Assembly: GCF_016888135.1 (NCBI RefSeq)
Contig: NZ_JACSWB010000217.1
Span: 62,001-126,000 of the forward strand
Length of the DNA: 64,000 nt
Direction of reading: 5' to 3'
From: Leptolyngbya sp. CCY15150
GTDB lineage: Bacteria > Cyanobacteriota > Cyanobacteriia > RECH01
Part shown: positions 22,954 through 26,255 of the stretch, in pieces
Position numbering within the stretch: position 1 is the stretch's first letter
Layout: every line of letters begins with the position of its first letter
Notes under the pieces: generated by a model
What the model was told of the DNA's origin: nothing
What the model saw: the letters and a program-made list of their open reading frames with translations, nothing else
Databases searched by the model: none
Position numbers and translations under genes: made by a program

Positions 22954-24126
22954 CTAGCCATCCCAACGTTCCACCAAGGTGGAAATCCCTAAGCCACCGC
23001 CTACGCCAATCAGCGCCAGGCCGCGCCACGCTCCCGGCGAACGATGGCGAACCAAGTCGGTAAATAACCGCGTCATTAAAATCGCCCCCGAGGCTCCGTA
23101 GGGATGGCCCAGGGCGATCGCACCGCCGCCAGGATTCACCAACTCGGGCGGAATCTCCAAGACATCTAAGCAAGCTAAAACTTGGGCGGCAAAGGCTTCG
23201 TTAAACTCCACGTGGTGTACCTCTGACCAGGTGAGCGCCGGGTGGCGGTGCAGGAGTAATCGAGTTGAGGCTACGGGGCCGATACCCGCCAGATTGGGAT
23301 CCACGCCGGCGATCGCCGCATCCACAAACCGTAGCCCCTGACGAATGCCCAAGGCGCGACATTGCTCCTCCGCCATCATCAACACCGCCGCTGCTCCATC
23401 ATTGATCGGGCAAGCGTTCCCCACGGTCACGGTTCCCTCAGGACTAAACACCGGCGGCAGCTTTGCTAATCGTTCTAGGGACAGATTAGCCCTAGGACAG
23501 TCATCGTCGATCACCCTGGTTTGGCTAGACAGGGACACGGGCACTCGTTCTAGCGCAAAACGTCCTGCCTGCTCCGCCGTGATCGCCTTCTGGTGACTCT
23601 GGAGAGCGTAGGCATCCTGGCGATCGCGACTAATACCGTAGGTTTGTGCCACCTCGTCTGCCGCTGCACCCATATCGGGATCACCGATGGCCTCCGGAGC
23701 AAAGCGGGCCCGATGGGTGAACCGAGGCAGGTCATAGAGGGATGCGGGCTTCTCAATCCGCCAAGGTGCCGTACTCACGCTTTCCATACCGCCAGCCATG
23801 TAGCAATCGCCCGCCCCTGATTGAATCAGCCGAGCTGCGAGATTAATGGCCGCCAACCCCGAGCCACACTGGCGATCCACCGTTAGCCCCGGCACCGACA
23901 CCGGAAAACCCGCCGTCAGCACCGCCAGCCGGGCCGGATTGCCCCCTGGGCCCACGGCATTACCCAGCACCACATCCGCCACCCCATCGGGGCCCAGCCC
24001 CACATCCTCTAGCAAGGCCCGCAGCACCGGAGCCGCCAACTGCTCCACCGACAGCGATCGCAGCGATCGCCCCACCCGCCCAATCGGGGTACGTCGGGCC
24101 GCCACAATAATCGGCGCACGACTCAT
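22954..24126 (-). CDS. Thiolase-fold protein (YhfS-like) lacking the second catalytic Cys
   Basis: A 390-residue thiolase-superfamily protein. The nucleophile Cys87 (VDRQCGSGLAAI), NEAFAAQ near residue 315 and the catalytic histidine in GGGAIALGHPYGASG are all present. The C-terminal CxG motif, normally CIGGG, reads GVGGG here, so Gly374 replaces the second catalytic Cys; the codon is GGC. This argues against a normal acetyl-CoA acetyltransferase and for an altered condensing or acyl-transfer step. Its ATG (24126) overlaps the stop of the acyl-CoA ligase gene by four bases (ATGA), so the two are coupled. The operon continues up to bioY, as in Bacillus yhfU-yhfT-yhfS. Confidence 0.9.
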   Translation of the reverse strand: MSRAPIIVAARRTPIGRVGRSLRSLSVEQLAAPVLRALLEDVGLGPDGVADVVLGNAVGPGGNPARLAVLTAGFPVSVPGLTVDRQCGSGLAAINLAARLIQSGAGDCYMAGGMESVSTAPWRIEKPASLYDLPRFTHRARFAPEAIGDPDMGAAADEVAQTYGISRDRQDAYALQSHQKAITAEQAGRFALERVPVSLSSQTRVIDDDCPRANLSLERLAKLPPVFSPEGTVTVGNACPINDGAAAVLMMAEEQCRALGIRQGLRFVDAAIAGVDPNLAGIGPVASTRLLLHRHPALTWSEVHHVEFNEAFAAQVLACLDVLEIPPELVNPGGGAIALGHPYGASGAILMTRLFTDLVRHRSPGAWRGLALIGVGGGLGISTLVERWDG

Positions 24127-25646
24127 CGCAGCACCTCCAGATCTGGCGTAGCCTCTAGGAGCCATTGTCGCAGCGCTAGACGATCCAGCTTGCCGCTCGG
24201 GGCGATGGGCCAGCGGGAGGTGGTGTAGAACTGCTGAGGACAGTGGGCACGGGGCACCTGGGTGCGCATCCAGGTCAACAACTGTCGCCGCGTCGGTCGT
24301 TCTGCTCCCTGCCATGCCAGCACCGCCACCAAGCGATCGCCCCGCTGCTCATCCGGTACGCCGACCACCACCGCTTGGCGAATGTCTAACCGCTGCTCTA
24401 ACACCTGCTCAAGCTGCCGAGGATAGAGCGTCAAGCCGCCGGTGGTGAGGCGATCGCCCTGCCGTCCGGCCAGATACAGCCAACCTTGGTCATCCAGCCA
24501 GCCGCGATCGCCCACCGTGGCCCAATCCCCAAGCCAGCGCAGCCCCTCCGATTCGTTTGCCAAATACCCCAGGCTGACCATGGAACTTTGGATGGCAATC
24601 CAGCCCACCTCCCCTGGTTCACAGCGATCGCCATTGTCCCGCAACACCGATAGACGAACCCCCTCCATGGCCCGGCCCACGGATGCCGACGGCGGCGACT
24701 CCTGAGATGACCGCAGGCTGACAAAACTTAGCTCGGAAGCACCGTAGTAGGCATAGGTCACCGCCTTCGGAAAAACGGCCGCTGTGGTTGCAGCCAAGGA
24801 CGCCGGACAGCGGCCGCCCGCACAAATCACGCCGCGCACCGAGGGATATACACTGCGCCGCCGTTCTGCCAAACGAGCGATCGCCCCCACCATGGTGGGC
24901 ACCCCCACTAGATAGGTGATCGCCGCCTGATCGAGCAGGCGCAAGCCTTGGCGGACGCTGAAATTGGGCAATAGGTATAGGGTTGCCCCCGCCTGCAAAC
25001 TATCCACAGCGGTGAACAACGACAGGCTGTAGGCCAACGAGCCAGGCACCAAGACGCGATCGCCCGCCCCGATGCCAAATTCCTGACGGCTGACCGCAAA
25101 GCTATCGATCCAAGACTGGTGGTGGCGCAGGATGCCCTTGGGTAGACCAGTTGTTCCCGAGGTAAAGCCAATGTAGAAAGGCGTATCGGGGGCGATCGCT
25201 GGTGGCGTAAACGTCTTTTCCCGTAAGTCCCAGACCGTATCGACATTCCACACCAACAGCCCCGGCGGCAGATGATCGGCAAGCGCAGCCATCCCTTGGG
25301 TATCCGTCACCAGTAAATCTGGCGGGTAGCGGTGCAGAGTAGCCTGGAGCTGAGCTGGCGACCAGTCGGGATTCAGCACCATGGCCACGCCGCCGATCAG
25401 GGCCGTAGACCAGAAAGTGACTAAGGTTTCCAAGCGATTGCCCAGCAGCAAACCGACCCGCAGAGAACAGGCCGCCAGCCGGGCATCATGCCAACGATCC
25501 TGGCGCGCCACGGTCTGCAATCGAGCTGCCATCTGCTGGAGCCGCTGACCCAGATCGCCATAGGTATAGGTGCGATCGCCCATCACCACTGCCGGGCGAT
25601 CGGGCCAAGTTTGAGCCACCCGTAGCAATCCATCTGCGATCATCAT
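24123..25646 (-). CDS. AMP-dependent acyl-CoA ligase (YhfT-like)
   Basis: A 507-residue member of the ANL superfamily that would activate a carboxylic acid to acyl-adenylate and then the CoA thioester. The phosphate-binding motif is FYIGFTSGTTGLPKG near residue 150. TYAYYGASELS and GDRGWLDDQGWLYLAGRQGDR are the A5 and A7-A8 motifs, and PSGKLDRLALRQWL is the A10 motif with the catalytic Lys. The start ATG directly follows the bioY stop (TAA|ATG) and its stop overlaps the thiolase start. The substrate is unknown. MenE was considered, but the neighbours point to biotin-linked acyl metabolism. Confidence 0.92.
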   Translation of the reverse strand: MMIADGLLRVAQTWPDRPAVVMGDRTYTYGDLGQRLQQMAARLQTVARQDRWHDARLAACSLRVGLLLGNRLETLVTFWSTALIGGVAMVLNPDWSPAQLQATLHRYPPDLLVTDTQGMAALADHLPPGLLVWNVDTVWDLREKTFTPPAIAPDTPFYIGFTSGTTGLPKGILRHHQSWIDSFAVSRQEFGIGAGDRVLVPGSLAYSLSLFTAVDSLQAGATLYLLPNFSVRQGLRLLDQAAITYLVGVPTMVGAIARLAERRRSVYPSVRGVICAGGRCPASLAATTAAVFPKAVTYAYYGASELSFVSLRSSQESPPSASVGRAMEGVRLSVLRDNGDRCEPGEVGWIAIQSSMVSLGYLANESEGLRWLGDWATVGDRGWLDDQGWLYLAGRQGDRLTTGGLTLYPRQLEQVLEQRLDIRQAVVVGVPDEQRGDRLVAVLAWQGAERPTRRQLLTWMRTQVPRAHCPQQFYTTSRWPIAPSGKLDRLALRQWLLEATPDLEVLR

Positions 25647-26189
25647 TTAGCGCTTCAAATCCGGCATCGCTCGCCACACCGCCTGCAGAGTCACACTGGC
25701 TAGCACCGCCTTCACCACATCACCGGGAATAAAGGCCGCCGACCCTGCGAGAGCTTGAACAAGGGACAACTTCGCCGCCACCGCCAGCCAGGGCACGCCA
25801 ATGGCATAGACCACGCCCAGACCACCGATGATGTTGATGGCGATCGCTTTCGGTAAATGGGGACGACGACAGAAGCGCTCCATCAGCCAACCAATCACCG
25901 CCGCCGCCACAGGAAATGCCGCCACGAAGCCCCCCGAGGGCCCGAGAAACACGCCCAAACCACCGCGCCCACCGGGCAACACGGGCAAACCAATGGCAAC
26001 CAGTACCACAAACACCAGCAGCGCCAAGCCACCCCGCTTACCACCCAGGATGGATCCGGCTAGCATCACCCCCAGGGTTTGGGCCGTAATGGGCACCGGC
26101 AAGCCCGGCACCGGCACCGGCGGCAGCAGGCCAAGCACCGCCGTTAGGGCTGCAAAAAGCCCCACATAAACTAAATCAAGAGTTTTCAT
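25647..26189 (-). CDS. bioY: BioY biotin transporter (S component)
   Basis: BioY is the substrate-binding membrane subunit of ECF-type biotin transporters and can work with or without BioM/BioN. The 180-residue protein has about six helices and the family pattern LPPVPVPGLPVPITAQTLGVMLAGSILGGKRGG near residues 22-55, plus FLGPSGGFVAAFPVAAAVIGWL and a last section with GSAAFIPGDVVKAVLA. No bioM or bioN is nearby, so it is a lone BioY. It is the first gene of a three-gene operon. An inverted repeat at 26204-26224 sits 15 bases upstream of its start. Confidence 0.95.
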   Translation of the reverse strand: MKTLDLVYVGLFAALTAVLGLLPPVPVPGLPVPITAQTLGVMLAGSILGGKRGGLALLVFVVLVAIGLPVLPGGRGGLGVFLGPSGGFVAAFPVAAAVIGWLMERFCRRPHLPKAIAINIIGGLGVVYAIGVPWLAVAAKLSLVQALAGSAAFIPGDVVKAVLASVTLQAVWRAMPDLKR

Positions 26190-26203
26190 CGCTAGGGCAA
26201 CCG

Positions 26204-26224
26204 TAGTCTTCGCGGGTTAGACTA
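26204..26224 (-). promoter_or_regulatory. Candidate operator before bioY
   Basis: In the 66-base spacer upstream of bioY there is a perfect inverted repeat TAGTCT-N9-AGACTA. A second, overlapping AACC-N12-GGTT pair reads across the same stretch and recalls the AACC/GGTT ends of BirA operators, but the spacing is shorter than in known sites. No -10 or -35 box is obvious. Confidence 0.35.
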
Positions 26225-26255
26225 TAGCGCAAATGCGATCGCCAATTCTACGACC

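Follow-up and report, generated by a model that had tools for sequence, protein, structure and literature searches.

A conserved bioY–ligase–thiolase-fold operon in Leptolyngbya sp. CCY15150 with a possible role in biotin repair

The window analysed here, a stretch of 64,000 nucleotides from Leptolyngbya sp. CCY15150 (positions 62,001 to 126,000 of contig NZ_JACSWB010000217.1), contains a three-gene operon encoding a BioY biotin transporter component, an AMP-forming acyl-CoA ligase and a thiolase-fold acyltransferase. It joins a known but uncharacterised operon type that is real and conserved, and it resides in a genus that appears, from its gene content, to have lost biotin synthesis. We tentatively favour, at rather less than an even chance, the reading that this is a laterally acquired BioY–YhfT–YhfS scavenging system, in which imported biotin of the bisnorbiotin type would be activated with CoA and re-extended by two carbons. 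Somewhat more doubtful still is the wider proposal that such a system constitutes an undescribed biotin-repair pathway, with a thiolase lacking Cys378 acting as a ketosynthase, and that it has replaced biotin synthesis in a cyanobacterial genus. The pathway, if it exists as proposed, would be new.

The operon and its gene products

The operon comprises the following features:

26189-25647, minus strand: bioY, 180 aa (PF02632)
25646-24123, minus strand: YhfT-type AMP-forming acyl-CoA ligase, 507 aa (PF00501/PF13193)
24126-22954, minus strand: YhfS-type thiolase-fold acyltransferase, 390 aa (Thiolase_N/Thiolase_C)
26190-26255, minus strand: short upstream region, presumed promoter, without a BirA-like palindrome

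The coordinates were verified, and the genes run head to tail without a gap, as an earlier note on this DNA had described: bioY and the ligase gene meet at a TAA–ATG junction (GCGCTAA followed directly by ATGATG), the ligase and thiolase-fold genes share an ATGA overlap (CGATGAGTC), and a GGAGG lies 5′ of the ATG of the thiolase-fold gene. The mechanically called open reading frame (ORF) 22954-24315 (453 aa) is the same thiolase with 63 spurious N-terminal residues encoded within the ligase gene; the 390-aa version, starting at 24126, likely has the biological start.

All Pfam assignments of the three proteins are well over the gathering scores. BioY matches PF02632 at 133.7 bits (cut-off 25) and is predicted to be the S component of an energy-coupling factor (ECF)-type biotin transporter. 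The ligase matches AMP-binding (PF00501, 185 bits) and AMP-binding_C (PF13193), its motifs reading as intact (the P-loop FTSGTTGLPKG, YGASE and the catalytic Lys within PSGKLDR), and the third protein matches both Thiolase_N (234 bits) and Thiolase_C (91 bits). Against NCBIfam, the ligase is matched most specifically by NF005797/PRK07638 (324 bits, followed by 225), and the thiolase-fold protein by NF005212/PRK06690 (376 bits, ahead of 305 for the specific model that follows); we take these models to represent the YhfT and YhfS families of Bacillus subtilis. Both proteins miss the curated cut-offs (518 bits for the ligase and 498 bits for the thiolase-fold protein), which appear to be tuned to Bacillus, and these nevertheless remain the best specific models. 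An assignment of the ligase as an o-succinylbenzoate-CoA ligase (MenE) was rejected, the MenE models giving only 149-175 bits, compared with 324 for PRK07638.

The parallel with Bacillus yhfU-yhfT-yhfS drawn in the earlier note is borne out by the family matches, the gene order and a single clade of thiolase-fold proteins: the three families and their order are identical in B. subtilis bioY-yhfT-yhfS and in the window, and the YhfS members of the Bacilli fall within the Cys378-less clade that includes the window protein. The association of bioY with yhfS/yhfT has been described in both B. subtilis and Staphylococcus aureus (PMC11089781). Unlike these systems, the window operon belongs to a cyanobacterium without BioB or BioF and encodes proteins that score below the NCBIfam cut-offs. 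Its nearest relatives are encoded by an operon of Azospirillum lipoferum, with identities of 64% (thiolase-fold protein), 38% (ligase) and 57% (BioY). The bioMNY-ligase-thiolase operons of Azospirillum, Shimia and other Alphaproteobacteria hold EcfA/EcfT genes and sometimes a major facilitator superfamily (MFS) gene, whereas the window operon has none of these, and neither EcfA nor EcfT adjoins its bioY.

The thiolase-fold partner has lost a catalytic base

Forty-five proteins encoded next to YhfT-type ligases were aligned with 25 ordinary thiolases. The Zoogloea thiolase sequence in the alignment served for numbering only; the Cys378 column was confirmed independently by an alignment to a Protein Data Bank (PDB) entry and by the 25 ordinary thiolases. 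In the Zoogloea enzyme, Cys378 acts as a base (PMC3406046), and the positions of Ser247 and Met288 line the active site (PMC7337054). The YhfS-type proteins keep Cys89 and His348 without exception (45/45) and Asn316 in all but one case (44/45), but none has Cys at position 378, where Gly (42), Ser (2) or Ala (1) is found; Cys378 is kept in 25/25 ordinary thiolases. The position of Ser247 is occupied by Cys in 44 of the 45, and that of Met288, in the pocket, by Leu, Pro or Ala in every one. The 45 proteins form one clade with a support of 100/100.

The window protein follows this pattern. It shares its fold, its domains and the Cys89, Asn316 and His348 equivalents (Cys87, Asn309 and His341) with the canonical acetyl-/acyl-CoA C-acyltransferase (thiolase, TIGR01930), but has Gly374 in place of Cys378 of the CxG motif, Cys239 in place of Ser247 and Ala280 in place of Met288. 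Judged from these sequences, the YhfS-type partner is not a normal thiolase anywhere in the family, and an ordinary β-oxidation thiolase is ruled out by the loss of Cys378 together with the separate clade. The earlier note was right to call the protein thiolase-fold, although the missing base had escaped it. The loss may reflect decarboxylative condensation, which needs no base at position 378; alternatively, the base could have been relocated to Cys239. An AlphaFold model made from six sequences had a mean predicted local distance difference test (pLDDT) score of 65, with active-site stretches below 50, and was not used for active-site geometry.

Biotin genes of the host genus and of other carriers

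The earlier note had proposed checking which bio genes the host lacks. BioB is absent from the host genome (G000, 99.96% complete) and from the two other genomes of its genus (G388 and G387; best score 36 bits, cut-off 225), and none of the three has a BioF ortholog, while the sister genus (G386) has both, at 390 and 411 bits, respectively. The only BioD-like match in G000 is orthologous to the second copy in G386 (49%), with the same neighbouring gene, and not to the BioD of the bio cluster; this comparison marks it as a paralog, and we rejected it as a sign of a biotin pathway. BioB is present in nearly all oxygenic cyanobacteria sampled. Acetyl-CoA carboxylase generally requires biotin, on which basis we assume that the host genus needs it, and the genus is therefore probably biotin-dependent. 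That note had hinted at either salvage or synthesis of a biotin-precursor acyl chain. Salvage is the part that we favour; in the window host, acyl-chain synthesis is ruled out as a source of biotin, because a genus without BioF and BioB could make no use of the precursor.

In the class to which G000 belongs, G000, G147, G177 and G332 were listed without a BioB match, 15 further match-less genomes not being named; G147, G177 and G332 are possible further biotin-dependent cyanobacteria.

In each genome, the searches scored the 5-8 best candidates, which makes the carrier counts lower bounds. Other carriers of the operon without BioB are two Shimia, a Bartonella-type metagenome-assembled genome and Sporolactobacillus, the last being one of seven such genomes among the 36 carriers in the Bacilli.

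Related operons and their link to the transporter

Among the related operons, the gene order of L114, bioY-ligase-YhfS-hotdog-MaoC-FabG-EcfA-EcfA-EcfT-FabK, provides a complete reductive two-carbon elongation cycle together with an ECF transporter. The FabK-like protein scores 283 bits to TIGR03151 and the FabG-like protein 190 bits, both under the equivalog cut-offs, and the dehydratase is HadB-like. Locus L113 has the same content except that bioY is not adjacent, and the genomes holding L113 and L114 (G870 and G848) have no BioB. Because the cycle here adjoins a biotin transporter in genomes unable to close the biotin ring, the combination suggests the lengthening of a molecule that already holds the ring.

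FabK-like genes also adjoin YhfS in L117, L124 and L128, and FabG-like genes in L118, L119, L121 and L125. Twelve more loci (L120, L122, L126, L127, L130-L135, L139 and L142) have the order ligase-YhfS-small-small; the second small protein has no Pfam match and is distantly related to MaoC (HHalign probability 96%, E = 1e-8), and we infer that the two small proteins sit at a VraC-like position. A bioY gene lies inside the operon in 24 of 44 YhfS-type loci, compared with none of 15 ordinary thiolase loci (p = 1e-4).

In L119 and L125 (genomes G838 and G889), ligase-YhfS-SDR (short-chain dehydrogenase/reductase) forms part of a longer run with EcfA-EcfA-EcfT, an amidohydrolase-like protein of 572-579 aa and a number of roughly 400-aa proteins, the first of which looks glycosyltransferase-like by eye; this run may be a cluster for the biosynthesis of a biotin derivative.

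Regulation

Of 34 YhfS-type loci in the Bacilli, 17 are preceded by a BirA-like palindrome with no more than one mismatch, whereas none of 15 ordinary thiolase loci is; this enrichment (p = 7e-4) is indicative only, as related loci are not independent. These boxes imply expression during biotin shortage, which fits acquisition rather than breakdown. In S. aureus, BirA represses yhfS-yhfT and bioY (PMC6391492, PMC7235819); yhfS-yhfT (vraAB) there, like the B. subtilis genes, belongs to the BirA regulon, whereas the region upstream of the window operon has no BirA operator (best match with six mismatches), nor did a simple scan of it find a σ70-like site. The alphaproteobacterial members scanned have no BirA boxes, and candidate BioR boxes in their operons were rejected, none beating shuffled sequences. 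In the Alphaproteobacteria, BirA has no DNA-binding domain (PMC5343134); since the gene linkage persists in this class all the same, the operon is likely to be held together by its substrate and not by regulation alone.

Distribution and origin

The earlier note had made its idea depend on conservation of the cluster in relatives, and the operon is present in all three genomes of the host genus, with matching surroundings wherever these are visible; none of the other cyanobacteria sampled has it. In G388, the thiolase-fold match has 96% identity and the operon flanks show the same order of ORF lengths; in G387, BioY (97%) and the ligase (91%) are accompanied by the same upstream side, while the thiolase-fold gene ends with the contig after 74 residues. 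The G387 operon was read at locus L041 of G394, whose coordinates in the BioB search agree with those of G387; this genome appears to be Leptolyngbya sp. DLM2.Bin15. Among 386 genomes of the phylum, G000 stood alone, its thiolase-fold match reaching 375 bits and the following one 307; the thiolase loci fetched from other cyanobacteria proved, on checking Cys378, to encode ordinary thiolases.

Outside the genus, the order bioY-ligase-thiolase-fold is shared with Shimia, Sporolactobacillus, Azospirillum (with bioM and bioN added), Streptantibioticus and many Bacilli (bioY-yhfT-yhfS), and for that reason it is more than chance. Carriers thus span four phyla, in the Alphaproteobacteria, the Actinomycetota, the Bacilli and one cyanobacterial genus; a survey of 289 alphaproteobacterial genomes, in which the top six thiolase candidates of each were scored, gave at least three, an undercount.

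In the tree, the window protein lies inside an alphaproteobacterial and actinobacterial clade (8 rows, support 98/92; 11 rows, 100/99). The GC content of the operon (62.4%) is above that of its flanks (54.5%), yet HIP1 octamers are denser in it (4.3 per kb) than the window average (2.8), for which reason we consider that the operon was probably gained laterally from other bacteria and has since been long resident. Contamination of the assembly was rejected, since the flanks are cyanobacterial, the neighbourhood recurs in G388 and partly in G387, and HIP1 is dense within the operon.

Proposed function and its alternatives

The repair reading builds on gene content, conservation, host gene loss, the loss of Cys378 and the accessory enzymes of relatives, all observed directly, with substrate and chemistry proposed from them. 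BioY would import biotin and vitamers with a shortened side-chain, such as bisnorbiotin, and the ligase would form the CoA thioester of the imported vitamer. The thiolase-fold enzyme would then load the acyl group onto Cys87 and condense it with a two-carbon unit, the source of which is probably malonyl-CoA or malonyl-acyl carrier protein (malonyl-ACP), used with decarboxylation as in a ketosynthase, because the base Cys378 has been lost. Keto reduction, dehydration and enoyl reduction would restore the full side-chain, by housekeeping type II fatty acid synthesis (FAS II) in the host and by the dedicated FabG-, MaoC- and FabK-like enzymes in the larger operons of the Bacilli, and a thioesterase would free the biotin. 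Human serum has been found to contain about as much bisnorbiotin as biotin (PMC9106636). If the proposal holds, natural breakdown products of biotin would be a usable source of the vitamin, and the host genus would represent a rare, likely biotin-dependent cyanobacterial lineage. The question can be put to a direct test because of the missing thiolase base, the complete elongation cycle found with transporter genes in BioB-less genomes, and a cyanobacterial genus that carries the operon but neither BioB nor BioF.

Several observations weigh against this proposal. Twenty-nine of the 36 carriers in the Bacilli possess BioB, so the operon is not limited to auxotrophs, and in the Bacilli it shows no tie to BioB loss (29/36 carriers have BioB, compared with 110/214 non-carriers). 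The window operon has no ketoreductase, dehydratase or enoyl reductase gene, and hence no reductive elongation module of its own, so that FAS II must provide these activities. SDR and MaoC genes also occur beside ordinary thiolases (12/15 and 4/15, respectively), and therefore only the FabK, BioY and EcfT neighbours are distinctive. The Cys at the Ser247 position (window Cys239) might stand in for Cys378, giving a non-decarboxylative thiolase. Finally, no account of norbiotin salvage was found in a search confined to open-licence papers, so that an earlier proposal published elsewhere may have been missed; in the same papers we found no assigned function for YhfT or YhfS, which are listed as a putative ligase and acetyltransferase of the biotin regulon.

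The possible substitute Cys is central to an unlikely alternative, in which the genes would form a biotin-sparing route: as acetyl-CoA carboxylase fails under biotin shortage, the ligase and the thiolase-fold enzyme would elongate scavenged fatty acids with acetyl-CoA by reverse β-oxidation, bypassing malonyl-CoA, with Cys239 as the base in place of Cys378. The full elongation cycle in some operons would be explained, as would the BirA-like boxes and the control of yhfS-yhfT by BirA in S. aureus (PMC6391492), and the Ser247 position, Cys in 44/45, does line the active site (PMC7337054). Against it, the established base is gone from all 45 proteins, and shared regulation is insufficient to account for a BioY/ECF linkage that occurs without BirA regulation in the Alphaproteobacteria (PMC5343134) and in a box-less cyanobacterium.

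Synthesis of the pimelate moiety is a good deal less probable. Glutarate or a similar acid would be activated and gain two carbons, yielding a pimeloyl thioester in parallel with BioZ, and in organisms with BioW this could be the source of pimelate. The BioZ route to pimeloyl-ACP, which uses glutaryl-CoA and malonyl-ACP, likewise adds two carbons to a CoA-activated acid by Claisen extension within biotin metabolism, and the pimelate source of B. subtilis is unknown (PMC11089781); the presence of BioB in most carriers of the Bacilli is also in keeping with it. BioZ, however, belongs to the FabH family and the window enzyme to the thiolase family, full-cycle operons and other carriers occur without BioB, and for the window host, which has neither BioF nor BioB to use pimelate, the idea is refuted.

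Equally improbable is metabolic trapping, in which the ligase would convert imported biotin into biotinyl-CoA and so drive uptake through a lone BioY without an ATPase module, the thiolase-fold protein transferring or hydrolysing the biotinyl group. This accords with the absence of adjacent EcfA/EcfT genes in the window and with the retention of Cys89 and His348, which suffice for acyl transfer, but trapping would be needless in the many carriers with EcfA/EcfT within the operon, and it leaves the ketoreductase, dehydratase and enoyl reductase neighbours unexplained. Least probable of all is an unrelated acid as substrate, associated with bioY by chance or mere co-transcription: 20 of the 44 YhfT-YhfS loci have no adjacent bioY, and a locus fetched from Rhizobium etli has a thioesterase in its place, but the greater frequency of bioY at these loci than at ordinary thiolase loci, conservation across four phyla and BirA-like boxes even at loci lacking an adjacent bioY (L131, L132 and L134) all argue against it.

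Neighbouring genes and other loci

On its 5′ side, the operon is flanked by a 151-aa ORF, with no match in Pfam or NCBIfam, and a glyoxalase-fold gene, and on its 3′ side by a convergent gene for a membrane protein of the EI24/CysZ family. On a plasmid of R. etli (L046), a ligase-YhfS pair without bioY is preceded by a 4HBT thioesterase gene. G000 and G387 each have two BioY genes. The second of G000 (L153, G000:C207:216001-216441; 110 bits) has no recognised operon partner; it is comparable to the second BioY of G387 and the only one of G386, and is probably the native cyanobacterial copy.

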